NCBI GenBank assembly: GCA_947034885.2
Contig: OX344755.2
Span: forward strand, 24,621,052 to 24,685,051
Direction of reading: 5' to 3'
DNA: 64,000 bases
Origin: Thuidium tamariscinum
Lineage: Eukaryota; Streptophyta; Bryopsida; Hypnales; Thuidiaceae
Shown: piece after piece, positions 21,486 to 60,900 of the stretch
Numbering within the stretch: position 1 is the first letter of the stretch
Layout of the letters: each line of letters starts with the position of its first letter
Made by a program: the position numbers and the translations under genes
Notes under the pieces: generated by a model
The model's database searches: none
Told to the model about the DNA's origin: nothing
What the model saw: only the letters and a program-made list of their open reading frames with translations

Positions 21486-22394
21486 TTAACCCCTAAAAGC
21501 CCATTGTCCCTTCGGGGGACAATTTGGAGTTTAGGCAGGTTCCATAGACCTCAATTTTTAATGAAGCTTTTGAATCTTTCTCATAATATAGGAAAAATGA
21601 TTAGCTTTGTAGGAATATATTTTTTATTTGAATTGGTGCCCAGGAGCAAAAGTTATACTACAGAAAGCCCAAATTTTAACTTGGCAAGCAGAAAAATAAA
21701 TCCACAAAAACTTGAAATTGAAATTAAATTTTTTTAATCTTATAGATTGTATTTTTGTCTATGTGTGAAGATTTGATTCATTCCATTTGGATTAGTTATG
21801 TAAAAGTCATGAACAATCTTGTTTTTGGGTAGTTTTTGAAAAAATAACTTATAGGATTCATTTCTGAATGAAATTTTCATATTTAAAAAAAAATTATTGA
21901 CAAGGTTAAATTTTCTTGCTAGAACTATTTCACCGTTGAGAATATTGTGTTTCAATTCCATCTTAGAGCTATTAACAATTTCATTTTTCTTTCAATCTTG
22001 GACCTACCTCTACTTAATAATTTTTTAAAGAATGAAAATCAAGCATTCTTTTTTGAAATTTTTTCCTAGACTTTCAACTCAATTCTTAAGGAAATTTTTT
22101 TTAATTCAAAGTCTATAGTGTTAAAAAAACTCAACAAATGGCAATTAAAGTCATTTGAAATTGCAGGACAGTGTTTCAAAAAACTATGTTTTCCAACTTT
22201 GAATGCTCATATCTTCCAATTTATATGGTCAAATTTCATAAAAATTTTACCACTTGATTTCAGACAAACAAAGTAGAAGGTTCTATAGTTAGATTCTATA
22301 AAAACACTTTTTTTTGTTCTTTGGATGAACACAACAAAAATGGCAGTTTGAGTGGTTTTTGACAAAACAATGGCCTTGGGCCTTTAGGGGTTAA
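21486..22394 (+). mobile_element. piggyBac-like non-autonomous element, both ends present
   Basis: The left end TTAACCCCTAAAAGCCCA and the right end, read in reverse, TTAACCCCTAAAGGCCCA match at 17 of 18 positions. No direct repeat extends beyond TTAA, so TTAA itself is the likely target duplication, with CCCCTAAA as the inverted repeat. It is 909 bases with no transposase frame. An inverted truncated copy opens the window (1-556). Confidence 0.7.
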
Positions 22395-22743
22395 ACTACA
22401 AAGAATAATCTCCCCAAGGGTTGTCTTTACAAGAATTTTTAAATTCTTCTTATTTAATTCATGTAGTTTATATTTCATTTTTAAAAAAATTGCAATAATT
22501 TTATGTAACCTATGTTCATTATAAATACAAGATAGTAGCAAATTTTGTTCAAGAACTTGGTGGAGTCATAGGATAATTAATCTCTAAAAATTGAATATAA
22601 AAAAATTATATAAAAAACAAGAAGTGGAAAATTCAAGAAGCTAGTTACAAAGATAAACTACTTTGAAATCAAAAGTGGAATCCAACATTCTAGGTACTTT
22701 CAAACTAAAGAAGTTTCAAGTACAAACTACTTTCAATACTAAT

Positions 22744-23692
22744 TTAACCCTTAAAGGACCAAAATGCCTTTTTTGGCAATATAGTGATTTTGGGCAAGTA
22801 TGTGTGACTAAAGATTTCCATGTTTTGGAACCAAACTTTAATAGAAGATAGGGGACAAGGAGTATCTTTAAAGCCCAACAATTTTTGTGACTTTTGACTA
22901 CATGGTTGAAAAGTTATCGCATAATATATTGTTTGTTTCTCAACTCGGACAGTTCGGGCCTTGGTTCGGGCAGATTAGGAAAATCTCTTTTTTTGGAAAC
23001 CAAAATTTTTAATTGGTTTTATAGATTTATATATACATGGAAAGCTTTGAATCAGTCTATTTGGATTAATGAGTCAAAATTTATGAAGAATTTTAGTTTG
23101 TGGGTACTTATGGATTCTCTACTCTAAAATAAACTTTGAAGTCTTTTATTTTACTCAATTTTCAATATTTTTGAAAAAAAACCAAAAAAAGCATTGGTTG
23201 TAGATTGTTTATTACAACATTTGAACCATTAGGATTGGCATTTTTCAATTCAATAAATAAATTGTTAACAATTTAGTATTTTGAATCATTCTCTACTTCT
23301 TTCTACTTACTATTTTTCTTGTATATGTTGGACAATTCCAAATGATTTGAAAATTTTCAAGCATGTAGCCAACTTTAATTGAAAAATGAATCCAAAGGAT
23401 AACAACCATTTTGAACATTTTTTTATACAAATTTGGCCTTCTAAAGTACAGCTGCCCGGATTTTTGCAATGGTAAAAAAAGAATTTTTCTAACTTCGAAC
23501 ACTAATATCTTGCAATCTACAGGGCGAAACTTTCTGAAATTTTTTCTACATCTTCTCAAACTAGTACACTAAAATATCCTATGGTTACATTATACCAAAA
23601 ATGTTTTTTTTCTAAAATTTGGTAGTTGTCTTTGAAATGACAGTTTTGGAGTAGTTTTGGTAAAAACATAGTCAAAAACCTTTAGGGGTTAA
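22744..23692 (+). mobile_element. piggyBac-like non-autonomous element, second subfamily
   Basis: It starts TTAACCCTTAAAGGACCAAA and ends, in reverse, TTAACCCCTAAAGGTTTTT. It is 949 bases. The body is the reverse complement of elements at about 28470-29344, 30055-30937 and 52521-53792 (shared block TTCCAAATGATTTGAAAATT in this orientation). No coding sequence. Confidence 0.7.
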
Positions 23693-24150
23693 AGTACTTC
23701 CAAACACAAAGTATTGTTAAGAAAAACCCAAATAGAAACAAGTGCTGAGTTCAAACTCATGATAGACACCTAAATGTAGTGTTCAAATGCTATATGCAAA
23801 TGCAAGTGTATGTGTTAGAAAACACAATACAAAGCATATACAAAATGTTTAAAAATTGGAGTCTATAGGATAATTGAATTTACATTCAAAGTTCAAAACG
23901 TAGGAACAAACCATATGTTAGAGCCACAAGTAATCCAAAATTTGAAACAATTTGTGCAACTATATGTTCCAAACCTTCTCTCTTGATCCAAACATTAAAA
24001 GCTTGAGCTTCCTCTTTAAAAACCAAACCTCTAAGCTTGTTCATACATCCACAACATTCCCAACTTGTAACCTATGTGAGTTAAAGTAAACAAAACCCTC
24101 AATCCAAAAACTTAGCAAATGTCAAAGCCTTGAATTGCAAGTGTTGTCAT

Positions 24151-24897
24151 TTAATTCCTAAATGCAAAAACTTTGATTTCTAGCAATCTAGTGATTTTGG
24201 GCAAATCACTATAAGTGGAGTTTTTAGTTTTTCTTTTTAAATCTCACAAAACATATTCCTACAAAGTAGCTTTAAGGTCCAACAATTTTCATAACTATTG
24301 ACTATATGGTTAAAAGATTATTGCATGATATATGATTTTCATCACTCGGCTTGTAGTCTAGGCAACTCAAAATACTTTTTTTAAAATCATTTTCTTAAGA
24401 AATAAAATTTGAAATTGATCCTTTAGATTTACATACACATACAAAGCTTCAAATCATTCCATTTTGATCAATGAAATAAAAATTATAAGGAGTTTAATTT
24501 GTAGGTAGGTACAGTTTTTAGAAACTCCATAATTATCCACAAACTAAGACTTCACATAACTTTCATCTCATAAATCAAGATGGAATGATTCAAAGCTTCC
24601 TATGTGTATATAATTCTAAAGAATCAATTTCAAATTTCATTTTAAAAAAAAGTAGTTCTTAAAGAAATTTTTTGAGTTGTCTGGGTTGTCTGTCAAGCAA
24701 TGAAAACTACATATCATACAATAACTTTTTAACCATGCAGACAATCAATATTTATCAAAAATTTTGGGCCTTAAAGCTACTCTTTAGGCACATGTTCTAT
24801 GAGATTTTCAAAGAAAAAAATTAAAAACTCCACTTGTAGTGAATTGCACAAAATTGCTATATTGCCAAAAAACGCAATTTTTGCATTTAATGGTTAA
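24151..24897. mobile_element. foldback piggyBac-like derivative (long inverted repeat)
   Basis: The left half (from TTAATTCCTAAATGCAAAAA) is mirrored by the right half (reversed: TTAACCATTAAATGCAAAAA), with a centre near 24520. Each arm of about 370 bases corresponds to one end of the element at 22744-23692. If transcribed, it would form a long imperfect hairpin. Confidence 0.7.
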
Positions 24898-25992: not shown

Positions 25993-26403
25993 AGTTAAGG
26001 TAGAACCACCCGTAACCGATCATTTAAGGTATTCTGAACATGATCTAGTGAAAGGTAAGGCAAAACAAATATTTTCAAAGGTATAAAGATTAAAATGATG
26101 GAGATTGCAAGAACTTTGGTTATTTTATGACATGAATTGAAATCATTATGAATTTTGGAAGGCAAAAAGTGTATTAGACCCAATGCCAATCTTTGAAGTC
26201 TTCTAATTTTGATCACACAAAAAACTACTTTTTTACTCACTCCTTACTACTTTCTTGCACACTACTTTGGGATATGTGTCATGAACTTTTAGTCCCAACT
26301 TTAAAAATGAGAAGAAAACACATTCTAGTCTTGGTTGGAAATACGTCCATCAATAGGTTGGCTATAGGAGGCCAATTAGTTATACGTGGTTCTACCTTAC
26401 CTC
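25993..26403. mobile_element. TIR element, uninterrupted copy
   Basis: The inverted ends contain AAGGTAGAACCACCCGTAAC and, reversed, AAGGTAGAACCACGTATAAC. It aligns with 1551-2487 on both sides of the MITE inserted there and so serves as the empty-site control for that insertion. Confidence 0.6.
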
Positions 26404-27477: not shown

Positions 27478-27479
27478 TA

Positions 27480-28056: not shown

Positions 28057-28469
28057 TATAATTTAGTCCACAATGGAATGAGGGACTTACTCCCATTTGG
28101 TTTGGAATAGGCAGGGGTAGTTTACCTATAGCATTGACTCAAGTAAGGTCTACACTTATTCAAACTAAGCTTTTGTCATGTACAAAATCTTTTGTCAATG
28201 CAAAGAATCTTCGAAAGAAAATGTTTTAAGGTGGGTACACCCAAAATTGCACTGTGTCTAAAAGGGTCAACTAGAAAAGGCACTAAAATGGCTTTGGCAT
28301 ATACAAAGAATGGTCATTCATGTGGCAATTTTAGAAGTTGTCAAGGTTTTTATGAGAGAATTCATATCAAATTATGGACATCATTAAGAGTCTTTAAGTG
28401 ATAGTTAAAGAATTTTAGAGGATGATGAGTTACATGTCACTGATGAGGGGATGGTGTTATACTTTGATA

Positions 28470-29344
28470 GTCTCCAAAACTACCTTTTCTAGTATAAGTA
28501 CCAAACTTTTTTTCAAACTTTTTTTAGGCACATGTGACTATAGATTCCTGTAGTATGCTACTTTAGGAAGATGTGGAAAAAATTTCACCATGTAGATGCA
28601 AGATATTAGCATTTGAATTGGCAAAAATCATTTTTTAGGTTTTGTGAAAAAAATGGCAATTGCACTTTACAAGCTCATATTTGTATGAAAAATGTCCAAA
28701 TGGTGGTGTATCTTTGGATTCATTCTTCAAATCAGCTACATGCTTGAAAAGTTTTAGATCATTTGGAATAACAAAACATATAGGGAAAAAATAGTAAATA
28801 GAATAAAGTAGAAAATGATTCAAAATATTAAATTGTTAAGAATTTATTTGTGAATTGAAAATTTCCAATTCTATTGTTTGTGATGTTTCAATAAACAATA
28901 TACACTCAATGTTTTAGTTTTTTCCAAAATATTGAAAATAGAGTAAAATAAAGGACTTCAAAGTTTATTTTAGAGTAGAGATTCCATAAGTGCTCGCAAA
29001 CTAAAACTCCTCATAACTTTTGATTCATTGATTAAAATAGAATGATTCAAAGATTTTAATGTACATATAATCTATAGAACCAATTTCAAATTTTTATTTT
29101 TTCAAAAATTGATTTTTTCGTTTAGCTGCCAAAGCTGCTCAAGTTCATAAAGAAACTACATATTATACATTAATCTTTAACCATTAATTCAAAAGTTATA
29201 AAAATTGTTATGCCTTAAAGCTACTTCTGAACCACATATTGTGTGAAAAACTCAGAGAGTAACAATGAAAATTACACTCATAGTGAGTTGTCCAAAAAAT
29301 CTATGTTTCCAAAAAACACACCTTAGGACTTTAGGGGTAATTAA
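28470..29344 (-). mobile_element. piggyBac-like element, 5' limit uncertain
   Basis: The body matches the reverse complement of 22744-23692. It ends GGACTTTAGGGGTAATTAA, a decayed GGGGTTAA end. The left limit is eroded and approximate. Confidence 0.55.
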
Positions 29345-29654
29345 TTTACCTCTACATTAATGAGTGAAAATCAAGTGTATCATTTTTTAATTCCTAAATT
29401 TTCAACTCGATTCTTCAACATAAAAAATTCAAAATTCAAAATTAGTAGTACAAAAATTTTAGGTTGAGAAGATTCAAAATCAAAAGCTCTATTGATTTGA
29501 ACAAGAATTTTACAACATTCACTATCCAAATAGTAGAGGGGTTGTGTGTTTAGTGGTTAACAATTGCTAGTTGTCATAGCCAATGGATATAGTTATAGTC
29601 TTGGTAGTTGAGATGAGAATGATCCATTTACACATTAATTGAAACCCAACGACA

Positions 29655-29846
29655 TTAGCATGTGAGCATAGAAGTGTGAGCCTATAAGCCTTGAGCCTAA
29701 GTATAAATAAGTATAATACACTCATTGAAGGTATTTATAATATAGATATACTATAACCATTGAGGTGTCTATAATATAGACACCTATATCATAGGTGTAT
29801 AGAATTCTAAGCTCATAGGCTCACACTTTCTATGCTTACATACTAG
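29655..29846 (-). mobile_element. CTAG-TIR MITE, copy B
   Basis: The left end ATGTGAGCATAGAAGTGTGA and the right end CACACTTTCTATGCTTACAT are inverted repeats. It is 192 bases and the cleanest intact copy beside the one at 35184. Non-coding. Confidence 0.8.
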
Positions 29847-30054
29847 AAATCATGACTGAAACTTACTTCAACTTTTGAATCAGTGAAATTTTGTCTCTTT
29901 TTCTTACAAAGGATCATCCACATTTACATTTACTTGCAAAGTGGATGAAGTCACATTCACATTCACTTGGAAGGCAAGTGATTGCTCATGCCAAACAAGT
30001 AAAGTTACTTACTTGGATTTACATCCACATGCATGTATTTCTACTATTTATTCT

Positions 30055-30937
30055 TTAAGTCCCTTGACTAAGTTTTCACCAAAAATGTTCCAAAACTACT
30101 ATTTTTAGTAAGATCTTGTAGTATACTCATTTAAAAACATGTGGAAAGAAATTCAAAATTTTTCACCCCATGGATTGTAAGATATCAACATTTTAATTCA
30201 CAAAAATCTTTTTTTTGTCCTTGCAAAATCCCGTGGTAGCTACACTTTACAAACTCACATTTGCATTAAAAAAAAGTCCAAAATGGTAGTGTGTCTTTGA
30301 AATCATTCTTCAGGGCAAGTTGGCTACATACTTGAAAATTTTCAAATCATTTGGAATTGTATAGACTTATATAGGATGAAAGTAGTATGTAGAACAAAAT
30401 AGAAAATGATTCAAAACACAAAATTGTTAAGAATTTAGTTATGAAATTGAGAAATGATAATCCTAATGATTGCAATGTTGTTATAAATAATCTATATCCT
30501 ATGGTTTAATTTATTTTCAAGAAACACTGAAAATTGAGTAAAGTAAAGGACTTCAAAGTTATTTTTAAGAATAGAAAATTCAAAACTATTTGCAAACAAA
30601 AACTCCTCATAACTTTTGACTCATTGATCAAAACGGAATGATTCAAAGCTTTTGAGGCATACATTAATCTAGAAAATCAATTTCAAATTTTTATTTATGT
30701 AAAAAGTTTTTTTTTAATTTGCCCAAAATGTCCATTTAGGGGGGATTGTGAGTTATTAGGCCACAACTTTTGATTGAAATTTCCAAATGTCTTGATTTTT
30801 AGTGCACATGAAAGATATTCTTTGTCCCTACTTTCTATCAAGTTTTGGGCCTAAAACATGGAACTCTCTAATCACACATACTTGTCCAAAATTCCTATAT
30901 TGCTCAATTTAGCAAGCTAGGCTTTTAGGGATTTGAT
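30055..30937 (-). mobile_element. piggyBac-like element
   Basis: It starts TTAAGTCCCTTGACTAAG and ends in a decayed GGCTTTTAGGGATTTGA. The internal sequence closely matches 28470-29344 and 52521-53792. Confidence 0.55.
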
Positions 30938-31720
30938 TGTGGATAGATGAATCATGAGTGATAAGAATGGAGTAGACATTCACAAGTTAATGAATGTTAA
31001 CTCTTGAAGGTCAATTGTCCATTCAAATGGACAACTAAAAATTGGAGTAGGTCCTAATCATGTCAATTTTGGCTAAATGTTTACAGAATTTTGACACAAG
31101 GTGTGAATATTTCTATCTTGAATGGAGAGATCATTTTTTTTCCAATAAAGTACCTATGAAAAAAAACTTTTGTTATTCTAAATTTTCTAGTAACCCAAGC
31201 AAATTGGGCATCTTTTGCAAAAGGGTGATTGCAAGAATGACTTCACGTTTTTGTCTCAAAAATGCAATTTTTGGCTATATGACTAGTAATACTACCTTAC
31301 ACTACTAGTACCACATGTTAGCAAAGCGCCTAAAAATCTAAACTATTGATTTAGGGTACTTGAAGATATGGACCATCAGTTCTATACTATGCAATACTAT
31401 GTAGTACTATAGACTACTACAAAATACTACAAAAGCCATTGGTAGCAGAAAATAGCAAAAAAGGGGTCTATAAACCTTTTCATTTTTAGTAATTCAAAAA
31501 AAATTCAAAAAATTATTTGTAAAAACCCCATTTTTCTAAACAATCTTTGAAGTCAAAGTTCTTAAAAAATTCGTACGTACTCCAAAATTGAAATCTCTAA
31601 TTTTTAACCATTTGGATTTTAGAATAAAAAAATTTGTCATTATACAAAAAAATCATACCAAAATGGCTGCTAGTAGTATATTGCCAGCTCACTTACTAAA
31701 CATGCAAAAACTATAGAGGT
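30938..31720. other. AT-rich intergenic DNA
   Basis: It contains a TACTA-rich simple stretch at about 31380-31435. No gene is seen. Confidence 0.5.
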
Positions 31721-31944
31721 GCTAAAATGTGAGCTTAGAATTATGAGCATGTGAGCCTAAGAATCCACATCCTTATATTATAGGTGTTTGCATTATAAAA
31801 AAATTCTATGATTATAGGATATTTATATTATAGATACCTTTATTATTAGTGTTTATGTTATAAATACCTTCAATGATTGTAGTGTATCTAATTATATCTA
31901 AGTTGAAAGCTTGTATGCTTGCATTTCTATACTCACATGCTAGC
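31721..31944. mobile_element. CTAG-TIR MITE, copy C
   Basis: The ends GCTAAAATGTGAGC and CTCACATGCTAGC pair. The internal TTATATTATAGGTGTTTG and CAATGATTGTAGTGTATC blocks are shared with the other copies. It is more diverged than copies B and D. Confidence 0.65.
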
Positions 31945-32909
31945 ATTGTTGTACTTTAATCACTCCCTCCTATTATTTGACTCTCTATATGTCATTCAAT
32001 TGATTCATGAGATATTTTTAATCTTTTCTCTTCTCTCCCTTCTTTAACTATATATTGTACCATTATACCAATCATTCATCTCTTTATTCATGGCAACTAG
32101 AAAACCTACTTTAGTTAACCCCTTGAGGACCTAATCCATTGTATAATGGTCAAACATCATTTTTGAGCTAAATTTAGTATTTTAAATTGTGTCAAAATAT
32201 TGAATTTATACTTTCAACAAATGATTATGGATTTTCAAATATTGTAAAAAGAATATCAGTGCGTTTCATTAAAAATTGTCATTGCTTTCATTTTGTAGCA
32301 AATAGTGACAATAAATTATTAAATATAGCAAAAATAATCCAATTAATTTAATTTTTTTTCAAGAAATATATGTAGCAATGAAAATTGGTGTGAAATCTTG
32401 TCAATGAATTATTTTACATTTTAATTCTAAAATTTCCTAGCCAATATCTTTGAAGTCAAATTCCACCATGCATCAGGCTAAATTTATCCTTTTCATACAA
32501 CTGATATGTTAAATTTGATTTTTTTTATTTTTGAAAACTAAAATTTCAAAGTAGGATATAATGAACCTAGAGATAAATGAGTGTGAATCTTTTGCTCTTG
32601 TAAGATCCTTTTGTTTTGAAATTTATACTCTACCATTATTTGTCATATCATGTATAATGATCATTATAGTAACAACAAAATTTTCCATCAACTAAGTAGG
32701 ATGATCCACTGTCATTCCTTTAGTCATTATATGTACTTAGACTAATGTACCTCATGATTTTTTGCAACAAGACAATAAATTAGTGAATTTCTGATATACA
32801 TTTTAGTCAATTCATTCTTGAGAAAGAAAAGTTTTCACATTGTATTGAATCAAAGCAAAAACAAACCGATTCCTATTATTGTTTGAAGAATTGAAGGGCT
32901 CTTCTTGTC
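31945..32909. other. intergenic; orphan TTAACCCC end at 32115
   Basis: TTAACCCCTTGAGGACCTAA at 32115 looks like a left end of the piggyBac-like set. A compatible right end (TTGGTCCTTGAAGGATTAA) appears only at 39552-39570. Nothing else is recognisable. Confidence 0.4.
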
Positions 32910-33985: not shown

Positions 33986-35183
33986 TTTTTTAAGATCAAC
34001 GGTGGAGGGAGTGGTTTGTGATTTTTTCTCAAAATAATCAACGACTTTCGGTTTTTAGGAGGGAAGAGGGGCTGTTAATTAATGGAAAAAACATTGTTCG
34101 CCACTTTTCGTCACATTGCACATTGTGTCACATTGTGTGACTCACTATGCATTATGACAATTAGTGCCATCATTTTTGATAATCTTGAATTAGGGTTTTA
34201 AGTGTTTCGATTACTATGAACACTTCATCTTATGTTAGGTATATATACCTATAATGGTCCCTTGACCCATTTGTGTCCCTATCTTTTTTTCCAACATTTT
34301 GAGGTTTAAATGTTCAAAAAATATATAACATATTTAGACACAGTTGCACTAAAAATTTGTAATCAACATGCTTACCTCAATGGTACAAAGTTTATTTTGA
34401 TTCATAAAATCTGCATTTATATATGCAAATGCTTTTTCATTACTAACAACCATATAATCTTTGACAAAAACAAATGTCATAGATGCTAGTATATAAGGAA
34501 AAATTGGAAATCTTAAAGAGGGTATGAAGGTTGCTATTGTATCATACTAGCATTGTTGAAGTGGATACACCCAAAAACATTATTTTTTATTTTTTTGCCT
34601 AATCACTATTATTTTCCTATTCAAATTTTCCTATTTTCTTATTGGGGAGTGACAAGAGGTTCCAATGCACCAAAAAAACATTACATTTGGATACCACATG
34701 CAAAAGTTACAAAGGGTTGAAGTTTTCTTTACTAAAGCACCTAAAATTGTTTCTTCCACATAAACTAGACAAACTTATTGAGACCTTGATTGCAATCTAA
34801 CTACCGAGGGGACAATTCTAACAAGGTTACATATTTTTTTCAGGTTTGCACTTGTTTCATGAATCAAACCTTAGAAGAGTTTTTATTTTCCAATCAAAAA
34901 TGTAATTTCTATGAATTTTTGAAGTGATCTACCTTAAAATTACAAAACCGAATATAGCATAGGGGCACAAACACCTTATACACAATCCATAACCACTATT
35001 TTGCATATCCATTGGCCTTCAAGTGTTCACCAATAAAAGATTGATACATTATCCCTTTTGAAATTAATGCATTGAAATTGTCAAAAAAATGAGCAAATTC
35101 GCATGATGAACTAGATGGAATGGGAGTCAAAACTAGGTCGGTGGAATAAGGAAGTAAATTGGTCTACCTTACCCTTTACAGTT
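33986..35183. other. AT-rich intergenic DNA
   Basis: No gene or bounded element is seen. Confidence 0.5.
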
Positions 35184-35376
35184 GCTAGAATGTAAGCATA
35201 GAAAGTGTAAGCCTATGAGCCTAGAATTCTACACACCTATAGTATAGGTGTCTATATTATAGACATTTCAATGATTATGGTGTACATATGTTTTAAACAC
35301 CTTCAATGAGTGTAGGATACTTATTTATACTTAGGCTCAAGGCTCATAGGCTCACACTTCTATGCTCATACACTAG
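35184..35376 (+). mobile_element. CTAG-TIR MITE, copy D
   Basis: Begins GCTAGAATGTAAGCATAGAA and ends TTCTATGCTCATACACTAGC, a clear terminal inverted repeat of about 40 bases. It is 193 bases. If the internal TA of GCTAG/CTAGC is the target duplication, it would be a TA-targeting element; this is not certain. Confidence 0.8.
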
Positions 35377-35386
35377 CTCCGTTGCC

Positions 35387-35623
35387 TTATCCCTTAAAGG
35401 ACATATTGGTGACTATGGAAATCAACCATTTTAATACCATAGGAATCATTAGTATAAAAATGAATAAAAATTCAAAAGTACTCATTGGAAGTCACACTAA
35501 TGTAGAAGTTTTTTCTTTTTCACCCCTGATTTTGAGGATGAATAGTTGTAATTTTGTCCTAGACAGAAAAATTCCTTGTCGCTCATTGGACGCCAAATGC
35601 CTATGGCGTTATTCATAGGTTAA
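35387..35623 (+). mobile_element. short piggyBac-like MITE (type S, copy 1)
   Basis: Starts TTATCCCTTAAAGGACATAT and ends in GGTTAA. Its 237 bases align throughout with 54915-55143 (shared CATTGGAAGTCA, TTTTCACCCC, TGAGGATGAA and GACGCCAAATG-like blocks). It begins only ten bases after copy D. Confidence 0.65.
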
Positions 35624-37932: not shown

Positions 37933-40263
37933 GCTACTTCCAACTTAAATCTACTATTGGTCAAATTGTTTTTAGATCAAAAATACCAATTATAGGTGGT
38001 CAAAGGAAAAACATATATATGCATTTCCATTGTTGTCTTTAAGGGGGACTATTTCTGTTTATTTGGATTTTTAATGTGGTTTTTCTAATCCCTATATAAT
38101 TACAATTGTAATCCAAAAGCATCTTTTGAACTTCTAAAATAATGAATGAACCTTTTTCAATGGATTGTCCTACTGTGATGTTTTTTGTACACTAACCTTG
38201 AAGTACTTTGACATCTAATTTCTAGAGAATGTATAGATTGAGAATCAAATTTCTTTCGCATTACACTAGGGATGAAAGTCATCCTAATTTTTAGAGACAC
38301 TTTAAGAAGTTGTTGTCCTATCCAAAGATTGGATTTGGTGTTATTAGAGTTTATATTTTTCTAAAAATACAAATGCAGAAGTATGTCAAGTAGTTGACCA
38401 AGCCAAAATTACATTGTCTTTAATTCAAACTTTGAATTGCAAACATGAAGTCATAGAATCAAAGAATACAAAAATTCCAAAATCATTGTGTCAAGAGAAG
38501 GTCATTTCAAATCCATTCCAACAAAATTTATTCAAAGAATGACAATATTTTGCTTGTAATTGAATTCTGGAGGAATTTTGAATTTTGAATTTTAAAATTT
38601 ATAGAAAATATTGGTGATAGCATTAGTGAATATAACTATATGGATAGAATCTAAAAATCAAACTCTACAACTTTTATTTGCATCTCAATTCCAAATATTC
38701 TTCCAAATAGTACTTTAAAAATATTTTTCCAAAATTGCCAATTCTGAAGGTGAGTTTGAATACTTAGGGATTAATGTGCCTACATTTCTTAAAATTTTAA
38801 CTATAAAAAATAAAAGCTATTTTGTCTAATTGCAAGGAATTAATTTAAGAAACTATTGACCATTGGATTTTGAGATTATAAGAATTTTGGATGGTCAACT
38901 TTATAGGCAAAAAAATATAGCTTCAGGGAAAGAAAATTTATAAAAAGATAAATATTGCTATCTAATCCTCCAAAAAATTGTATTAGAATCAAAAAATCAA
39001 AAAATTCTCTCAAATTTGTACAAATTCTTAAACAAAGAGAATAGGAAGCCAAAACTAACCTAATTGAATCCTACAAAGTTTTAAAAAATTTGTATATGCA
39101 TCAATTTTTGAAGTTGAATAATTAAAATCATTAGCATATTGTTTAGAACATCTTCAAAAAATTTGGAATCATTTCTTCTTCTTATTTTTTCTTCATCATA
39201 CCAAATTGAACCTTGTATTTCTAAAATTGCTACAAATATAAATTTGAAAAAGAATTCTCTAAACCTAATATTCTATACAAAACAAAGACTGGAAATGTCT
39301 ACAAAAAAGGTTTTTTTTCCATCCCTATGATTCTTTTTGTTGAAAAAAGATTATGTTTGCTCCCTTTGCCTATTAGACTACATTTCTAAAATAAAATTTT
39401 AAATTCTTCTCACATTGAAATTGTAGAAATAAAAAAATACAACAAGTATGTGAACTTGTTCTACAAGATTCTACTTTACAAAACATTGAGATTTCTTTGA
39501 TTCTACTAAGAATATGCCATTGAAAATTTGAAGAAGATGTATTGTGTCTACTTGGTCCTTGAAGGATTAAAGACCAAAAGGTAATTGAGATTTTCAAAAT
39601 TGTAAAAATATATTATAAAATGCAGCTTAGAATAATAATTTAATGATGATTCTAAAACAATAGTTGTAAAACATGATCTATAGTAGATCATATCCATATG
39701 ATTAGATGTACAAGTTCACAAATCAATGTTTTTTAATAAAATTTGAAGTAAAAAATTGAAAGTTGTTTTGAAAATTGAAAGTAGATTGAAGATTTTCTTG
39801 ATTTTCTTAGGTTTCTCCCCTATAAGTTCAAAATGTTAGCTTCTAATCATGGTGTTTTTTGAAGATTTTTATTTTGTTTTCTTATTCAAATTGTTTTTGA
39901 AGAGTCATTTTTTGAATTAAATAAAGTTACTTTTAGAAACAAGACATACTAATTGCTTTTGAATTATAGAATATTTTAGAAAAAAAGTCTTCAAAATTTG
40001 TAGGTACCACACAAATGTCAAATCTCAAACTACTACACAAATATTAAATAAAATGAATGGATGAAAAAATTCATTTTTGCAGGCTTGTGATGTGTTTGCA
40101 TTCATCTATTGTTTGAAATTTAAACATCTAGTCATGAAGGATTAAAAAAAACATATCATTGCAATGAACCATAAAAATGATTCAATGTGAATATTCTTGG
40201 GGTAATTGGATAGTTATTAAAGCCTATATGTGCCTCCAATTGCTTAGTTGAAAAAAAAGGCTT
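37933..40263. other. AT-rich intergenic DNA; orphan GGATTAA end at 39570
   Basis: TTGGTCCTTGAAGGATTAA at 39552-39570 resembles a right end of the piggyBac-like set. The only candidate left end is 7.4 kb away at 32115. No gene is seen. Confidence 0.4.
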
Positions 40264-40452
40264 GCTATTATGTGAGCCTAGAATTGTCAATCCATGAGCC
40301 TGGAAGACCATACACCTATATTGTAGGTACCTATATTATAGATACTTATATTATAGGTGTTCATATTATAAGCAATTTCAATGGTTGCAAGATATTTAAT
40401 TAAATATATGCTCAAAGGTCACATTCTTGCATTTTCATATTTACTCACTAGC
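40264..40452. mobile_element. CTAG-TIR MITE, copy E
   Basis: The ends GCTATTATGTGAGCC and TTTACTCACTAGC pair, and the internal ACACCTATATTGTAGG and TTATAGATACTTATATTATA blocks are shared. This is the most decayed copy; the terminal repeat match is weak. Confidence 0.6.
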
Positions 40453-42104
40453 ATTATTGATTGGAAAAAAAACATATTTCATCATTTTCAAAAAACAATA
40501 TGATTTTTGGGCAATTTTCTATGACCAAATTTTGTCCAAAATTTTAGAAACTTTTTATTAATTTGCAATGACATTTGAATCCATTGAGGTCAATAGATTA
40601 TTGCCTATTTGGTCCCCTAATTTGTAGCAAAAATAGACAGTAGGTTGCATACTAAATAAGTTGGTAGCTAGGAATTTATATCATTAAAAAATTTCCATAA
40701 ACTTTTAGAAAGCTAAGACAAGTATATTTAAAAGATAAAAAATATAAATCTCTTATAGAATAAATCCATTTCTATAAGAAAAACATTTATTTCTTCTACT
40801 ATGACTATTGAGGTAAATAGTCATATTGTAATGAATTTTGTTTTTTCATTATATAATATCTTAAATTTACAAAATGTGCTAAGAATTTAGGTGGTTTACA
40901 ACAAAATTTTCACCATTGGAATAAATCCATACAAATTAGAATATTAGGGATTTACTTTTTTGTGTCATCTTGTACATCCTTCTTCAAAATGATTATTTTG
41001 AGTATGACATATTAAGCTTTTTTTTGTTGGAATTATTTTCCTATAGATTCAATTCAATTTTTCGACAAACTATCAAATTCCTCAAGTTGCAAAAGATACA
41101 ACTTTTTTTATTAAAAGTTTCAAAATTGAAACTTCACTTTTGGAAAGGTTTGGAAGGTTCTTGTATATAGCCTTCATGCTGAAATAAATCCAGATTTTCA
41201 AATATACTTGTTTCAAATAAAATTTGAAATTGGCTCTCCAAAACTTGATGAACAATGATTGAAGCTAGTTCAAATACCTTGAAGCAAAAATATTTGTTGA
41301 TACCACATTCCAAAGACTAATAATTGTCCATCTAAGAGCTGAAATTGAATTTTGGGGAGTTGAAACATCTTGAAATATTTTTCAATATATTTTCCTTGAA
41401 AGACAAGTGAAATTGACATCTAACCCAAGTCGTTTTATATTTTTTGGAGCTTTGTGAAATTAGTTATCAAAATTTGAAGTTGAAAGGATATAGGTCTCTA
41501 AAATGGTACCCTAATTAAAATGTACACTATCAGTACACTATGAAAAAGCAACATGTACAAATATTGCACATTTAAGGTAGGGCACCATTATTTATGGAAC
41601 TTGTTCCATTTAAGAGCCTTCTACCTTATAACAATTCAATCCTCGCAAAGGGAGTTGAGATGCAACCTTTGACCAACCATAGATGAAGAATTCAACACAA
41701 CACTATACAATAACCACTACTACTAAATTTGTTGTTGAGAATTTTCTAGAGTTGAATCACAATATAGTGTTGGAGTTGACTAGACAAGACATCAATAGAC
41801 ATCATTACACCAATGGTCCTTAGAAAATGATCAAAATTAATACCAATGGAGCATTTCGGAAAAGGGCAATAATTTGTCGATTTCACCACTTATTTTTAAC
41901 ATGCTGTGCTTCTCTCTTGACTTCCGTTCTTTTACGCCCAATGGGGTTTTATAGAAGTTACATGAACTATGCAATCCCTTGAAAATAGAAGCATAATCTC
42001 GCCATTTACACAAAACTCCTGATTTATTTTGTTTTGATTTTGAGATGGAGGGAGTACTTCAGTTAGCATCATGCCGTGTCCTTTCATCCCATTCATTCAT
42101 CCTC
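40453..42104. other. intergenic with dispersed repeat and a lone Stowaway-like end
   Basis: About 41290-41510 is the repeat also at 26600-26800. GAGATGGAGGGAGTAC at 42042-42057 is a Stowaway-type terminus without a visible partner. Confidence 0.45.
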
Positions 42105-52520: not shown

Positions 52521-53792
52521 TTAATTCCTAAAGTTCCTTGACTATATTTTCACCAAAAACCCTCTAAAACTGCCATTTCTAATACAAGTACCAAATATTT
52601 AGAAAATATTATTTTTAAACACATGTAACTATAGGATCTTGTAGTATGTTGGTTTGAAAAGATCATTAGGGAAAAATTGAACCTACAAAGAGGCTTTGAG
52701 TTTTCTTACTAATTTTAATACAAATTGAATGAGCATGAGGATGTCTACATCATCATTACTACTTCCATATAGGATTGCATATAGCCACTTGGCTTATAGA
52801 TATTTGTAGGAGGTGTGTGCTCCATCCTCTATGATGGAACCATCATGAGATTTATGAGATTTTGGAGATGGATTGGGTAATGATGATATATTTTTGAATT
52901 CATCAAGTAATTCTTGGTTCAACTAGTGAGTTGAGAAGGCTTTTTCTATCCAATCTCTTTATGAAGCAGCCTCTTTTGGGGTTCAATTTTCTCCTAATAG
53001 AGGAAAATTTTCAAAAAAAAATCTTTTATATGGATTACAAGATATGAGTATTTGAAATGACCAAAATATTTTTTTTGGCCCTGCAAAAATCGGGCATTGT
53101 ACTTTACAAGCTCACATTTTCATGAAAAAAAGTTCAAAATAGTAGTGCTTCTTTGGATTCATTCTCTAAGGCAATATGGCTACATGCTTGAAAATTTTCA
53201 AATGATTTGGAATTGTACAACATATAGGAAAAAAAATATTAAGTAAAAAAAAGCAAAGAATGATTCAAAATACTATATTGTTAAGAATTTATTTGTGAAA
53301 TTGAAACTTACCAATTTCAATAGTTCAAATGTTGTAATAAACAATCTACATGCAATTCTTTTAATTTTTTTCAAAAATATTGAAAAGTGATTAGAAAAAG
53401 GACTTTAAAGTTTATTTTAGAGTAGATAATCTATAACTACCTACAAACTAAAACTCTTCATAACTCTTGACTCATTAATCCAAATAGAATGATCTAAATC
53501 TTTCCACATAGATATAAATCTACAAAATCAATTTCAAAATTTTTTTTCAAAAAAATGATTTTTTCTGATTTGCCCAAATTGCCCAAGTTGAGAAACAAAC
53601 AACCTATCATGTAATCACTTTTTAACTATGTAGTCAAAAGTCAAGAAAATCATCGGGCTTTGAAGATGTTCCCCATTAGTACCTTCTATTAATATGGAAA
53701 TCTTGTTTCTAAAATATGGAAATCTTTAGTCACATATACCTGCCAAAAATTTTATATTGTCAAAAAAGGCACTTTAGTCCTTTAAAGGTTCA
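52521..53792 (-). mobile_element. piggyBac-like element inserted in the LINE
   Basis: It starts TTAATTCCTAAAGTTCCTTG and ends TAGTCCTTTAAAGGTTCA, a decayed TTAA. The body matches 28470-29344 and 30055-30937. It splits the LINE between its thumb region and its C-terminal zinc-binding region, and is itself split by 52669-52994. Confidence 0.6.
52669..52994. mobile_element. MITE nested inside the LINE-borne element
   Basis: Inverted ends GGGAAAAATTGAACC..AAAGAGGCT and, reversed, GGAGAAAATTGAACC..AAAGAGGCT extend about 28 bases. The sister elements at 28470 and 30055 lack this block, so it is a later insertion. Target duplication unclear. Confidence 0.65.
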
Positions 53793-54088: not shown

Positions 54089-54358
54089 CACTATAAGAAA
54101 CCCCTGTTTTGGGTGATGAGCTCTAATTTTTTATGACGGATTTTAGGTGATGTCAATGTTGACAACCCAAAAATTTATGTCAACAAAAATATCCAATGTA
54201 ACATCAATGTTGATATAAAAACATTGGACTATCAACATTGATGTTACATTGGACATTTTTGTTGACATAAAATTTTTGGATTGTCAACATTGACATCACC
54301 TAAAATCCGTCATAAAAAATTAGGGCTCATCACCAAAGACAAGACTTTTTTTATAGTG
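54089..54358. mobile_element. CACTA-like hairpin MITE in the LINE
   Basis: It begins CACTATAAGAAACCCC and ends TTTTTTTATAGTG, i.e. CACTATAA on both strands, flanked by TTT (54086-54088 and 54359-54361): a 3-base duplication as in CACTA/En-Spm elements. Almost the whole 270 bases are two arms of about 125 bases, with a short loop near 54220 (arms share GTGATGTCAATGTTGACAA and TCCAATGTAACATCAATGTT). Confidence 0.85.
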
Positions 54359-54914
54359 TTTGAAGGTAGAAGAATTCAGTACCGTAGTTGGGATTGATGA
54401 GAGTGGTCTTGGAGAAGACTAGGCAAACTGAAAGAAGCCCCCTTCTTCGGGTATACTGTACAATCAAGAGAGGCTACCTAGAGGGATTCAAGTGCACAGG
54501 AGAGAGCGAGGGAAAAAGATCAATATGGACACATGAGCTAGTTAATTAGGAATTAATTTTGGATTAATATGCCTCCATGTACAAATGCCTATGGCATCAA
54601 GCACGCCCAAGGAAACAAGCAATGTTGTTGTGGCAAATCATGAATTGAGGAGTTGTTGTAGATGAATGGTTATCTTGGAGGATTCCTCAAGCACATGACA
54701 CATGTCTTCTTTGTGGGCATTATGTGGAAACATCTACACATTTATTTTGGGACTATTAGTTTGTAAAAGAGTTGTAGCAGAAGTATAATTCTTTTGCCTA
54801 GGCTTCCAAAACACTTATTTTTTCCAACCTTCAACAAGCTTTGTTAGGAAGGATTAATTTGAATACTGGTTCTCCTTTTTAGGAAAATATATATACATAA
54901 GCCAACCATGGGAT

Positions 54915-55143
54915 TTAACCCTTGAAGGACGGACTGGTGGCTGCGGAAACCATGCATTTAGATACCGTGTGACATCACCTACTTTGAAAAAGCCAAATAT
55001 ATGCATTGGAAGTCAAAGTACTGTAGAAGATCTTCCCTTTTCACCCCAATACTGAGGATGAAAAGTTGCATTTTTGTCTTGGAAGGAAAGATTCTTTGTC
55101 ATTCAGCGGACACCAAACGTCCGCAGCGTCGTTGAAGGGTTAA
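54915..55143 (+). mobile_element. short piggyBac-like MITE (type S, copy 2)
   Basis: TTAACCCTTGAAGGACG at the left and, reversed, TTAACCCTTCAACGACG at the right match at 15 of 17. It is 229 bases and aligns with 35387-35623. No direct repeat lies beyond TTAA. Confidence 0.75.
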
Positions 55144-55518
55144 GGAGATCATTTTTTATATGACACCTCTAGGTAGAAAGATATAACACAAAATACGGTA
55201 CCCAAGACTTTAGCATTCATAGTGTTATGAGCTCTACTTGGATTTCTACAATTCATGCCGGCATGGCCATTAGGGAACATATTAATGGTGGCATTAACAA
55301 CAAGGAACAATTACATCAAAAAAGTTGGGCCAGACTAATTTGGTGCTATTTTAACACCAAAGGCTGCATTTTGACAATATTGGTGCCATTTTCTCCTTAC
55401 TCAGTTGGTATGGGGATTAGCACCAAATTTACTTGATTGCATTTCAATGCACCATCATGGCACCATATTCACATGCTGTTAAGTTCCTGATGTAGCTAGC
55501 ACTATTTCTTGGGGCATG
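55144..55518. other. short intergenic stretch
   Basis: GGTGCCATTTT/GGCACCAT words recur. No gene is seen. Confidence 0.4.
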
Positions 55519-56364
55519 TTAACCCCTAAAAGCCCAAGGGGTTAGGACAAAACACAAATGTGCTATAAAATATAAGAATTACAACTTTTCTGAAGTTAGT
55601 ATCAAAGAAGATAATGTAAAGCACAACAAGTAGAAAGTATCCATACAGTCAAAGTAAAAAAAATGTTTTTAGATTATTTTTAAATGAATTTTGAAGATAT
55701 AACTTCAAAAATTCACCAAAAATACAATTTCTATTTTTAGGATTTGAAATTTTTTTTGATTGGTCAAAATTGTGTTTTTTATTGATTTATAGAAAAATGC
55801 AAAATATTCAACCTCTAAAAGCCCAAGGGATTAAGACAAAATACAAATGTGTTATAAAATATAAGCTTTACAACTTTTTTGAAGTTAGCATCAAAGAAGA
55901 TAATGTAAAGCACAAAAAGTAGAAAGTATACATATCATCAAAATTTAAAAAATATTTATAGATTCTCTTCAAATGAATTTTGAAGATATAACTTCAAAAA
56001 CTCACCAAAAATACAATTTCTATTTTTATGATTTGAAATTTTTTTTGATTGGTCAAAATTATGGTTTTTATTGACTTGTAAAAAAATAAAAAGTATTTAC
56101 TAATGAGAGCATTAGTAATTCCCCCAAATAGTAATTTTTTCAACACTAAGCAATTTTAGACACTTTGTACTATTTCTCCTTTTTTTTGCTCTAACTCATG
56201 TTTGACCGTACTGATCTTAGTTTTGAATATCAATGTTGAAAGAAAACCCAATTTTTTCAAAACTGAAAAAAAAAAAATTTGAAAAAAGTTTTTTTTTTGC
56301 TCGAAAATTCTGCCCGAAGTTAGGCAGCGACCAGAAAATGGTCGCTTGAGCACTTAGGGGTTAA
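55519..56364 (+). mobile_element. piggyBac-like element with internal tandem duplication
   Basis: The left end TTAACCCCTAAAAGCCCAAG and the reversed right end TTAACCCCTAAGTGCTCAAG pair. The first 289 bases are repeated in tandem (55522 onward and 55811 onward), so the second unit carries a second internal copy of the terminal motif CCTCTAAAAGCCCAAGGG. Confidence 0.7.
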
Positions 56365-56564
56365 ATGATACCATCGAAACCCTCAGGAAAAACGCTGAAA
56401 TTTTTTATTTTTTTCAAATTCAGATTCAGAATCAGAGACCCCAAATTAGCTAGGGGGACCATGAACATACCAAAAAACCCAACACAATTATAAACCCCAA
56501 ACCCTTGTCAACCCCTAGTAAAATGAGATTTACCCCTGGGCCCACTTTCGATGGTATCATTTAA
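56365..56564. mobile_element. third relative of the MULE-like MITE
   Basis: AAATGATACCATCGAAA at the left is inverted exactly at the right (TTTCGATGGTATCATTT). The inside (CAGAGACCCCAAATTAGCTA) matches the interior of 17472-17743, and in reverse 1676-2218. It abuts the TTAA of the preceding element. No 9-base duplication is evident here. Confidence 0.6.
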
Positions 56565-57904
56565 CGTTCTGCCTATTCCTCAGTTTGAGATAGCTTGGAC
56601 TCCGGTTTTTTGTGATTGAGGTAGACTGGTTTGGCATTTCACTATGCCTACCATTTTGCTCTGATTTGTTGTGTATTAATTCGTGGCTTTCAGAGCAAAA
56701 ATCCCAAACTTCTTTACATGGTCTGACATGAACTACTATGGCACACATTTTTTTCATTTCTCTGTCAAGGTGAAATTTGAAGTCAGCCCTACTCTAGCAA
56801 CTTGGGTGCAACATAGGCAATTGACTTCCTTGGGACATCTGGAACTCTGGATTCCTACAGAGTCAGATCTTCAAATGGAAATTCCTATAATTTTGAATGT
56901 GCTCATTAGTAAAAACAAAAGTTTCCGACACATGGAATTCCGTTCCGATTGTGCTGAAAAAGAGAAGAAAAAGTTTCTGACACAAGAGACAAGGATGTAC
57001 TGTAAAATCACGTAACTTACTGTACTGTACTGTCAGATTCACTTCTTAGAAAGATAGAAAGTCAAAAAGGCAATTCAATAAAGAACCCAAACTGTCACAA
57101 TTTACCCAACAGTTCCACACAGAATCTAAGATAAGTTATTTAGAAACCGTGAAATCGTTGCCCACGGCTACTGGGCCCCGGCCCGGGTCTACGATTCCGG
57201 GGCCTAAACCTCTGCCCCAACCACTCTGCCCGGAAAAAAAGAAGAAGGGGAGCGCGTGAGCCCCCGCGGGCATGCATGCCTGGCGCGGTGATGGGGCGGC
57301 ATGGAGCCATGGGGCCCATGGCATTCGAGAGCGCCTCTTTCTTCATCGTCTTCGGCAGCGCCGCCCCGCAGTGCAAATGAACAACGACGCTCGTGGACTT
57401 TCTACCGGCGCTGGCCCAAGTGGCATTGCAATCGCATTGCTTCCTTTTCATGGATTGCAAATTGCGCTGCCCTCTTCCTTCTCGTTCCAACGAGCCATTG
57501 CTCGCCCTCTCTCGCGCTCTGTAGCACTCGTTTTACAGCTATCTTCATTCCTCTGGCTCCCACGCGTACGTTGCATGCGCGGCAAATAGGAAATTCGACG
57601 CCGTCCCGGATTGACGCGGGGGATTGAGGGACCCGGAGGTCGCCATCGCGCCTCGAGGGATCAAGTCTTGTGTGTCAGTTGCGATTTGTGGACGGAAAGG
57701 CATTGGCCTGGGAGTTTAGACATCTAACGGCTTCAAATTTTGGGAGGGGAATTTTGACCTGCATTGTCAAAGGGAAACCCTAGGGTGGGAATTGACGTGA
57801 TTAGGGAGTGTCTGTGATGGTGAGGAGGGAGTGGCTGGGGGCGATTGTGGCATGAGAGACGGGGGTGGATAATCAGGCGGAACTGGTTGAGGACGGTTGT
57901 GAGG
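56565..57904 (+). promoter_or_regulatory. intergenic and probable promoter/5' leader of the DCD gene
   Basis: About 57130-57904 is strongly GC-rich and CpG-containing, unlike the DNA before it. This fits a promoter and 5' UTR. Overlapping long frames on both strands there follow from the composition. Confidence 0.4.
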
Positions 57905-60900
57905 ATGGTGGCCACCGCCAAATACCATCGTCCGGGACCGACATTGTCCGTGGACGTGAGTTGCATGAGAGAGCGGAAGGTGGATGGAGGCGCCTCTGCT
58001 GGCAATGCCGGCGGTCTGAATGAGCCTCTCGGAGGCTTCATATTCGTATGCAACAATGACACCATGCGCGAAGACTTGGAGCGTCACTTGTTTGGTACAG
58101 TCTCTTCCCTTTCAATCAATGTTTCTGCCTCCCGACTCTGACTTGGTCAAGTTACAGTTTTCCATCGCTGTAGGTGACGTTAGGTTTTCTGGGCAATCGG
58201 AGCAGGGATTACCAATGTCACCTTTTTTCTCACATCAATGACATTTCTCCTATGGAATTTGAATGGGATTTTCCCTTCTGTTATTTGAGTCTCAGACGAG
58301 GCGTGAAGTGTAATTAGGTGGACAACACGTTCGATTGTATTGTGGAGCGGTTTTAACCGACTGCATCTTCCCCGTTTTTTACTTTGATTCCTTCTCTACG
58401 CTTTGGCACAGACGTGTCAATGCTCTCCATTTGCGGCGGGGGAGTAGAATGAGGTGACATTGAGAGAAAGAGGTCAATTTCTGCTAAAGCAGTCGTGAGA
58501 ATTTGTCAGAACCCTACATTGAGTTTGTGCTGGGGTCAGGGATAAGCTCCAGCAATTCGCGACAGTTTTAGGATGTGAAATATGCGAATGACGTAGTCAT
58601 GGCAATGCCATCGTAGAAGAAGTCGGGCGGAGTGTCCATGGCAAGAGATGAGAATGCACATGTATTGTGAAGTCGTGAAAGGGGAGGATTTGCGATTCCA
58701 GTAAGGTTTTAGAAAGAAAAAATACTCCTGTCATTTAACCCTGGAGCGCTCCGACGTCCAAAAAGTGGATGACGGACAGAGTTCAAGACTCACAGAGATT
58801 TCATTCATCCATTTTTCTCATAGTTCAGCGATAAGTTTGGAATGCATTAGTGGTAATGGCGTTTGTATTTGTGACAGCAATAGGAAGAGAAAAATGGATG
58901 TAATCAAATATGCAAAGGTCTGTAGAAAATTGTAGAAAATTCTCAGGTGCCCTAGGTGAAGAGAGTGCTGCCCTGACTTTGATCGGGCAAAAAAATACAA
59001 TGGGGTAGTCAGTAGTGGGCATGGGTGTCTTAGTTGTACTTTTGAGTTCGATAAAAAATTCGAGGGTGTTGATTTCAAAATTAGTGGAAGTGACGATTGA
59101 GCATTTTCCTAGAACTAGAACAGTAAAGAGACTGTATACAAGAGTGCTAGATGTCAGGAACTTGTGAACAACTGATAATCTATTTTGTAAAGTGGACGAA
59201 GGCATTTAAATGTGTCGGTATGGAAATGCGAATAAAGTGTTATTAAATTCAGCATCGGGCATCTGTGGAATTGGCCCCCGTCATTGAAAATTTTGTGTTT
59301 GTTCTTGTCATCCGATAGGTCTGCGTGTTGCAAGATGCATAGTAATGCATATCTTTCAAACTTGTCAATGTAATATGATCGGTTGCATTCGTCTTTCGAT
59401 GCTCTTCTTACAGTGAATTTCCCTAGTATTTTTCCAAGCAAGCACCTGGTCGTTTCGACATGATTTCTGCAGAAGTGATCACCTGACTGACAAGGTCAAC
59501 GCTCAAATTATCTTGGTCAAACCTGATCATCTTTACAGGAACTGAATTTTTCCTCATTTTCACTTCATTTTCCAAGAGTGTGCATGCTACTACTCGAGAT
59601 CTTACGGTTACCTGCTGCATTCTCTAAAGTTGATCTCAGAAATTGTCGTCCAAAATGTATACAGTTTTCAAGCGGCTTCCCACTTCTACAATTATTCTGT
59701 GCGCTCCAGGGTTAATACGAGGTCTGCTCAACTACCATTTTTCATGAATAACTTACAGAAAATAGCACCTCTGGGTCGCTTGCGTTTTTGAGGTAGGCGC
59801 CACTACCAGGAGCCTGCCCGACTAATTATGTCCACAATATTTTGTGCATTTTTAAAAGGAGTGTTTCTCAGTGACGGTGATGTGTCAGCAGTTGAGTTGT
59901 TCCATTTCAGAGAAGTAGGCAAAAATACATTGACGAGTTCTGTCACTAGAGTTTGCTTCTCAATAATTGCTTGCTTGTTTACAGGGCTTCCTCAGCGGTA
60001 TCAAGACTCCGTAAAGGCAATACAGACGGGGCTTCCGCTGTTTCTTTACAACTATTCCACAAGATCTATGCATGGCGTTTTCGAGGTGAGTGCATGACTT
60101 GCCGTGAGGTGCACACAGCAGACACCGGCAACGTACGCTTGCTGTTCTTTGGGAACTAGACCTTTGGCCTGTACGGACGATTGCTGATATATCATCTTCT
60201 GTTTTCAATTTCTTATTCACTCTGGTGCTAAGGTATGTCTAGCGGTTAGATATAGATAGTTTTGCGGGCTGCCTCAGATGACCTGACCTGTACTTCAATA
60301 TCTTACAGGCGACGAGTGATGGTGGCTTCAACATTGAACCTGAGGCTTGGGAGATCAAAGAAGCAAGACGGAATGGTCGGCCTATGTCTCGTTTTCCTGC
60401 ACAGGCATGCTTTACTTCCTGCGATTGCGTTGGTCATAGGGTCTTGTACTCGCTGGGTGACGGTCATGGTTCAGTTTCTTACGCATTTGTTTTGATCAGT
60501 ATTATAAATGGTGGTGCTCTTTGATTTTGGTCATTAGTCCTGTCTTCTCTTAAGTTTTCCTGTCCAACGGTGAGTCGTAATCATTTGCTGCCTCGAAAAA
60601 CAAGCGGTTCTTGCGTAATGACACTAGATAGAGAGCCTGAATAATACACTGACAAATATGGAACTTGATCATGTAAACTGACTAGTCACTTGCTGTGTGT
60701 TCTTCTATTAGGAAATTGCAGTTGTTTATAGCCTTCAAATTTTTTTTGTCGCTCCAACCTACATCTCGCCCAATTCGAACGCTTCAGATTTTTGTGATTT
60801 GCTGCACCGTATTCATGCTCTTGTTCTGCTCTTGGGAATATGACAATCCTTTCAAACATTTGAACATGCAGGTCAGAGTTCGTTTGAGAGAGGAAAGACC

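Follow-up and report, generated by a model that had tools for sequence, protein, structure and literature searches.

Known piggyBac systems and the moss window

piggyBac transposons are known mainly from animals, where they are accompanied by miniature inverted-repeat transposable elements (MITEs), short non-coding elements that carry piggyBac ends and are moved in trans. Elements that resemble these animal MITEs by description, short, non-coding and with piggyBac ends, occur in a 64,000-bp stretch of the moss Thuidium tamariscinum (assembly GCA_947034885.2, contig OX344755.2, positions 24,621,052 to 24,685,051), hereafter called the window. The set is almost certainly composed of non-autonomous members of the piggyBac superfamily, namely MITEs and one shortened derivative, moved by a DDE_Tnp_1_7 transposase that is made elsewhere in the genome.

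The T. ni piggyBac (PDB 6x67/6x68) shares with the moss elements a TTAA on both sides, CCCT-type ends, a DDD transposase with a C-terminal cysteine-rich segment and a left-end palindrome near bp 25. Unlike it, the moss elements reside in a land plant, measure 4.9-7.2 kb when they bear a transposase and are distant in sequence (phmmer, 1.1e-22 between 6x67 and the transposase of the moss element F1, described below). Nothing in the moss elements corresponds significantly to the inner repeat that T. ni piggyBac has at its right end. By sequence, the closest solved transposase is that of piggyBat, a bat element (PDB 9c0f, 3.4e-27 with F1); the two matched stretches span about 365 of the 1,023 residues of F1.

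In the plant literature, PiggyBac appears among the MITE superfamilies of angiosperms, which were classified, as here, by terminal repeats and target duplication (PMC10004981), and the same label was given to 1,230 annotated pieces (122,417 bp) in Ceratopteris (PMC6890710). The parts of these two sources that were at hand describe no transposase-bearing, full-length or young copies, whereas such copies are present in the moss. A 2024 review counts PiggyBac among the plant DNA transposon superfamilies (PMC10794571) and another text says that piggyBac has been isolated from plants too (PMC10813416). In the sections available, a 2022 land-plant review names six terminal inverted repeat superfamilies with piggyBac not among them (PMC9033089), and a study of transposon expression in P. 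patens does not mention piggyBac (PMC7466625). No description of a transposase-bearing, recently active piggyBac in a moss was found in the literature searched, which was available in part and lay mostly outside subscription papers. The novelty lies in the host and in how vigorous the population is; the kind of element is already known.

Ends and grouping of the window elements

Five exact pairs of TTAACCC(C/T)...(A/G)GGGTTAA ends lying 200-1300 bp apart were found in the window and define five complete elements. First-order Markov controls of the same composition (n=100) averaged 0.13 such pairs, with a maximum of one. The end consensus TTAACCCYTWAARGRCC, built from the very ends on which it was scored, matched the window ten times (2+4+4) with at most two mismatches, against 0.05 matches per Markov sequence (n=20). 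The terminal inverted repeats are short and unequal, and have the 5'-CC(C/T)...GG-3' form of piggyBac. Over the 16 bases that follow TTAA, left and right ends agree at 13 positions in A1a, 9 in A2a, 11 in B1, 13 in C and 14 in D; the agreement is 9-13 in ten transposase elements and 5-7 in the decayed copies A2c, A2d, A2e and B2. The complete elements, followed by the partial or decayed copies, are listed below.

21486-22394, no strand: A1a, a piggyBac-type MITE of 909 bp with TTAACCCC ends and a palindrome ATTGTCCC-TTCGG-GGGACAAT near its left end
22744-23692, no strand: A2a, a piggyBac-type MITE of 949 bp from a large family, recognized by its ends and its copies in the same genome
54915-55143, no strand: B1, a MITE of 229 bp recognized by its ends, with the right-end palindrome GCGGAC-GTTTGGT-GTCCGC (6/7 pairs at index 28)
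55519-56364, no strand: C, a MITE of 846 bp with an internal 288-bp tandem duplication, a palindrome at its right end and ends that match those of F9
58735-59715, no strand: D, 981 bp, related to a transposase-bearing piggyBac but shorter, its two ends running collinear with those of F8; without Pfam match in six frames
1-556, no strand: A1 element truncated by the window start, 80% identical to 21483-22007, with right end TTAACCCCTAAAGGACC
24151-24897, no strand: A2-related foldback with decayed CCC ends, aligning over its full length to its own reverse complement (74%)
28470-29344, no strand: decayed A2 copy with approximate limits and decayed outer ends, 72% to A2a over 905 columns
30055-30937, no strand: decayed A2 copy with approximate limits and decayed outer ends, 72% to A2a over 847 columns
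35387-35623, no strand: decayed B copy, 70% to 54915-55149
52521-53792, no strand: A2-type element of 1,272 bp with TTAA at one end and TGAA at the other, 79% to A2a over 779 columns, without Pfam match in six frames

In a self-comparison of the window, the A2 group comprised 22744-23692, 24151-24897, 28470-29344, 30055-30937 and 52521-53792, four of these five being decayed or altered. The A1 group comprised 21486-22394 and 1-556 (80% over 542 columns), and parts of A1 were 61-72% similar to A2, this relatedness being internal. The B group comprised 54915-55143 and 35387-35623, and C and D had one copy each. There are therefore four to five interiors with one common kind of end, in line with the original prediction, which had proposed at least four interior groups with agreeing termini. 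All five complete elements that it had delimited, with TTAA and CCC(C/T) inverted ends, stand where it placed them. The self-comparison supports its grouping, with the corrections that 1-556 is cut by the window edge, the limits of 28470-29344 and 30055-30937 are approximate, and 52521-53792 keeps a single TTAA.

The foldback at 24151-24897 looks as if two half elements had been joined head to head. Stray A-like ends at 32115(+), 39570(-), 12718(-), 26812(-) and 30997(+) had no convincing partner in the window. The open reading frame 59154-59495(-) inside D looked piggyBac-like by eye, and D was considered as a transposase relic; this was dropped when Pfam, PDB (one chance-level match) and six frames with X at stops gave nothing. 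The link of D to piggyBac is drawn from its ends. The only Pfam match in C was at chance level (E 0.32).

Transposases in the moss genome

The searched assembly comprises 363,211,507 bases in 19 contigs, the window being C7:24621052-24685051. The LEAFY N-terminal domain PF01698 had six matches in this genome and none in 14 control genomes. A LEAFY DNA-binding exon of 107 aa best matched 4bhk, the LEAFY homologue from Physcomitrella (6.8e-71, 100/106 residues identical as counted from the alignment), and was more distant from 2vy1, Arabidopsis LEAFY (2.4e-50). These results place the host among the land plants, very probably among the mosses.

At least 116 matches to PF13843 (DDE_Tnp_1_7) were obtained in the moss genome, all above the cut-off and the best at 5.7e-80, and none in the 14 control genomes; 116 of 658 first-look candidates were scored and every one of them matched. 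Many lie within open frames of 500-1,200 aa. The 14 domains from fetched loci that were aligned, F9 being outside this alignment, are 33-100% identical to one another, with identities to F1 of 37-73%; they form 11 groups or more, between which identity does not exceed 73%. The catalytic residues D144, D249 and D365 are invariant in all 14 (near-duplicates included) and fall inside the regions that align with 6x67 and 9c0f. As judged by eye, nine of ten elements, F1 included, possess the C-terminal cysteine-rich segment, the frame of F6 stopping before it; in F1 the cysteine-rich domain itself had no Pfam match.

Ends were located for the transposase-bearing elements F1 to F9, which measure 4,896 to 7,225 bp, all have TTAA(C/T)CC ends and contain open frames, where read, of 408-1,214 aa. 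The limits of F3, F4, F5, F6, F8 and F9 come from one copy each. F1 is an element of 5,096 bp, found at all 11 fetched loci (L009-L019, 269.4-269.6 bits) on five contigs. When compared with L012, eight copies were identical throughout and three had 1, 1 and 2 base differences. Each of the 11 runs from TTAACCCCTAAACGCCGG to CCGGCGTTTCAGGGTTAA between TTAAs, with unrelated flanks. Its frame of 1,023 aa has the PF13843 domain at 5.9e-79, and piggyBat and T. ni piggyBac, in that order, are its nearest solved structures. F7 consists of two elements of 7,186 and 7,225 bp that are 98% alike, and at either side their alignment runs out precisely at the TTAA. The F7 copy in L027 has the ends TTAACCCATTAAGGACT and TTAACCCTTTAAGGACCA, which are of the A/B kind.

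A further transposase group with near-identical domains is formed by L006 and L007 (C8:23.93-23.94 Mb), in opposite orientation about 7 kb apart, and by L008 on C1. When viral contigs were scanned with the alignment of the transposases, none of the 104 pattern hits proved to be a relative.

Transposase-bearing parents of the window elements

Genome-wide there are 52 occurrences of TTAACCCTGGAGCGC, a 15-mer of D (control 1); one of them is followed 3.4 kb downstream by a listed transposase of the same strand. This locus, L045, holds F8, an element of 6,882 bp with TTAACCCTGGAGCGC at its left end and TTAACCCTGGAGCG at its right end. When searched against L045 alone, positions 1-62 of D matched the left end of F8 (79%, 4e-11), and positions 743-981 matched the right end (59%, 1.5e-5), the collinearity holding up to the final base. 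F5, F6 and F8 form one clade, 55-64% alike.

The right-end 22-mer of C occurs 262 times with at most one mismatch (control 0; 100 places listed), and one exact occurrence has its start 3.2 kb ahead of a transposase whose open frame is 705 aa long. This transposase belongs to F9, an element of 5,108 bp. The right end of C and the left end of F9 are identical over the first 42 nt and 79% alike over 102 columns (E 1e-17 against that locus alone); the left end of C matches the right end of F9 over 23 bp (91%). Subterminal regions were also compared by z-score, with the first 16 nt omitted, 94 bp compared and F7_L028 left out as a duplicate (216 comparisons, median 0.55). With the right end of F9, the right subterminal region (16-110) scored z 6.1 for A1a and 6.6 for L031, a copy of A2. 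A DDE_Tnp_1_7 parent was thus found in F8 for D and in F9 for C, and for A on the right side only; for B none was found. The right-end 18-mer of B1 has seven exact copies in the genome (reversed control 0).

Target site and nested insertions

TTAA stands on both sides of all five complete window elements, all 11 copies of F1 and 11 of 12 fetched A2 copies, the exception being L030, with TTAT/TTAC. No repeat beyond TTAA above chance was seen in 27 insertions (5 in the window, 11 of F1 and 11 of A2; the decayed L030 was left out).

Two nested insertions gave an account of the duplication length. In L024, a 5,493-bp piggyBac is nested in an A1 element, of which A1a is an uninterrupted counterpart. 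Once the insert is removed together with one TTAA, 932 bp remain, which showed no gap at the join against four of six A1 copies, A1b among them; of the other two, L014 does not reach the site and L027 is poorly aligned. In L013 and L044, an A2 element is nested in another A2 element, and the remainder without one TTAA was gap-free at the join against 17 of 18 A2 copies (A2c gapped). These observations fit a duplication of four bases and agree with the TTAA target of piggyBac, the reference copies at the nested sites being themselves without TTAA. In L010, a copy of F1 makes use of the TTAA that terminates an A2 element.

A possible insertion of C into an inverted repeat, its right flank recurring inverted at 56545-56564, was considered as an empty site and left unused; the alignment of the joined flanks was weak (score 46; highest of 200 shuffles, 38).

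Left-end palindrome

In T. ni piggyBac, the dimerized pair of cysteine-rich domains sits on a left-end palindrome at bp 17-33, and the minor groove is narrowed around bp 25 (PMC7351741). The eight left ends of the moss transposase elements (F1-F6, F7_L027 and F8) show a single sharp palindrome peak at index 28 from TTAA, which equals bp 25, with a mean of 5.5/7 pairs against 1.68 over all centres and 2.75 at the next best centre. The right ends show no average peak. In a shuffle test of eight left ends, F1, F2, F3, F5, F6 and both F7 reached p <=0.043, and none of the eight right ends did. The arms vary by family (CGCCA/TGGCG, CGTCCA/TGGACG, TCGACC/GGTCGA), so symmetry and position are kept and the letters are changed. 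Among the window elements, C, B1 and D have a palindrome at one end in the same place. The moss elements thus possess an asymmetric subterminal palindrome near bp 25, as T. ni piggyBac does.

By analogy with T. ni, the bp-25 palindrome may be the docking site of the zinc domain of the transposase, and a MITE may require, besides a transposase acting in trans, one end with such a palindrome and one without it.

Copy number and age

The exact A-type 18-mer TTAACCCCTAAAGGACCA occurs 4,488 times in the genome (2,294 + 2,194; reversed control 0). Among 100 listed places, 15 opposite pairs spanning 915-934 bp and at least one more spanning 1,171 bp were recognized by eye. With A2a as query, 9,460 first-look candidates were obtained from the same genome; 40 were scored and all 40 matched query positions 1-949 or 1-948, plus one 77-bp piece. 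Twelve of these 40 were fetched (L029-L040). Over 932 bp, no difference separates L031 from L033, and L038 and L039 are likewise identical, the members of each pair being on different contigs; the A2a of the window is about 10% diverged. Judging from such sequence identities, the piggyBac population may be active at present, and the complete, very young piggyBac elements of this genome could be moving the MITEs.

Weighing of the explanations

In the proposed mechanism, a DDE_Tnp_1_7 transposase encoded elsewhere in the genome would bind the short CCC(C/T)TNA... ends through DNA contacts, its C-terminal cysteine-rich domain would grip the asymmetric palindrome whose centre lies 25 bp in from one end, the element would be cut out, presumably precisely, at TTAA, and it would be pasted into another TTAA, which would thereby be duplicated. 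The observations on which this is based are the ends, the TTAA on both sides, the four-base accounting at the nested sites, the transposase parents, the catalytic DDD and the near-identical copies.

Several results weigh against this interpretation or limit its reach. Pfam scans of three window elements, D and 52521-53792 (six frames each) and C (four frames), detected no transposase. The uninterrupted copies at both nested sites lack TTAA (TAAG and TCAA at one, ATAT, GTAT and others at the other); because they have other letters, a duplication length of four is supported and the pre-insertion TTAA itself is unseen. The one-sidedness of the palindrome is imperfect, since the right end of F8 also scores 5/7 pairs at that position. 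The left-end palindrome of F4 is not significant (p 0.81), that of A1a is one base off-centre, that of A2a is weak and not significant, that of the decayed B2 is not significant at this place, and A2c and A2e are without it. The limits of F5 and F6 depend on single copies. The right subterminal region of the window's own A2a scores only z 3.2 with F9, and the left end of D scores slightly higher with F5 (z 6.3) than with F8 (5.8). The z-score shuffles were single-base, so A-rich composition is only partly controlled. The A-type left ends are without a transposase parent among the fetched loci, and no B parent was found, the seven exact B1 ends lying at least 224 kb from any listed transposase.

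Other transposon classes could be considered for the same elements. Sola elements also have a target duplication of 4 bp. Sola1 of Physcomitrella is moreover among the six land-plant superfamilies in the 2022 review (PMC9033089), but the parents with the same ends carry PF13843, the DDD residues and a cysteine-rich C-terminus, and a Sola origin, for which no dedicated search was made, is exceedingly improbable. Kolobok MITEs would account for the TTAA flanks on both sides, since this superfamily duplicates TTAA as well, and Kolobok is recorded in chlorophytes and rhodophytes; however, its termini are 5'-RR...YY-3' (PMC9587614), whereas those found here are 5'-CCC...GGG-3', and the elements with these ends encode DDE_Tnp_1_7, so that hardly any probability can be granted to Kolobok, although no search was aimed at it. 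Tourist (TTA/TAA) and Stowaway (TA) MITEs are common in plants (PMC10004981), and their target letters fall within TTAA, where they could have landed by chance. Yet all 27 counted insertions (L030 left out) have the full TTAA on both sides with no longer repeat outside, four bases rather than two or three explain the nested sites, and C and D have parents with a different transposase, PF13843; the chance of either family being responsible is negligible.

It could also be that groups A and B were moved by something else and acquired piggyBac-like ends by convergence. No fetched transposase-bearing copy matches A at both subterminal regions, and B is without a parent. On the other hand, the right subterminal regions of A match F9 (A1a, L031 and, at a lower score, A2a), the transposase elements of F7 have CCCNTTAAGGAC ends, and A1 and B1 have the one-sided palindrome. 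Convergence is considered very unlikely.

The original prediction was right on structure and class. It had assigned the elements to piggyBac from TTAA and CCCT-like ends, and DDE_Tnp_1_7 genes were found between the same kind of ends genome-wide; the search that it suggested for this transposase showed the moss's own genome to be rich in such genes. The genome-wide collection of TTAACCC ends, also proposed there, returned thousands of A-type ends and fewer of C, D and B, with reversed controls at about zero. Mobilization by one transposase type holds at the level of one superfamily and has to be amended to several transposase families, because D pairs with F8, and C and A pair with F9-like elements. 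The empty-site check yielded the four-base length at two nested insertions, but the single TTAA expected in uninterrupted copies is absent from them.

Wider meaning

On balance, it is rather probable that this land plant harbours an old, diversified (at least 11 groups, 33-73% identical in the catalytic domain) and still mobile piggyBac that drives thousands of MITE insertions, and whose bp-25 palindrome has been kept by compensatory change despite differing letters. If this is true, the palindrome would be a conserved docking site of the zinc domain of the transposase across kingdoms. The moss families offer an evolutionary test of the DNA features that the transposase truly needs, and a native plant piggyBac is available for study of its entry into plants and its silencing. 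It might be developed into a tool adapted to plants, with which DNA could be inserted and excised without scars; the piggyBac of insects works in rice and was untested in P. patens when the source was written (PMC5505980).

Other features of the window

A repeat of about 545 bp at 1673-2220 is missing, at 26114-26120, from the otherwise matching stretch 25995-26399; the window therefore holds an empty site of this repeat, whose boundary is not TTAA. Shorter copies of it lie at 17471-17736 and 56431-56575. Imperfect repeats in which CACCTATATTATAGGTG-like palindromes abound are dispersed over the window, at 18566-18751, 29638-29853, 31708-31951, 35174-35385 and 40251-40459, the copy at 35174-35385 ending immediately before the B element at 35387. 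A palindrome of 270 bp, 88% self-complementary, is located at 54089-54358. The window also contains a frame at 7457-8338 with GST and hemerythrin domains, hemerythrin and GST_N being under the Pfam cut-off, and a NYN-LOTUS gene.

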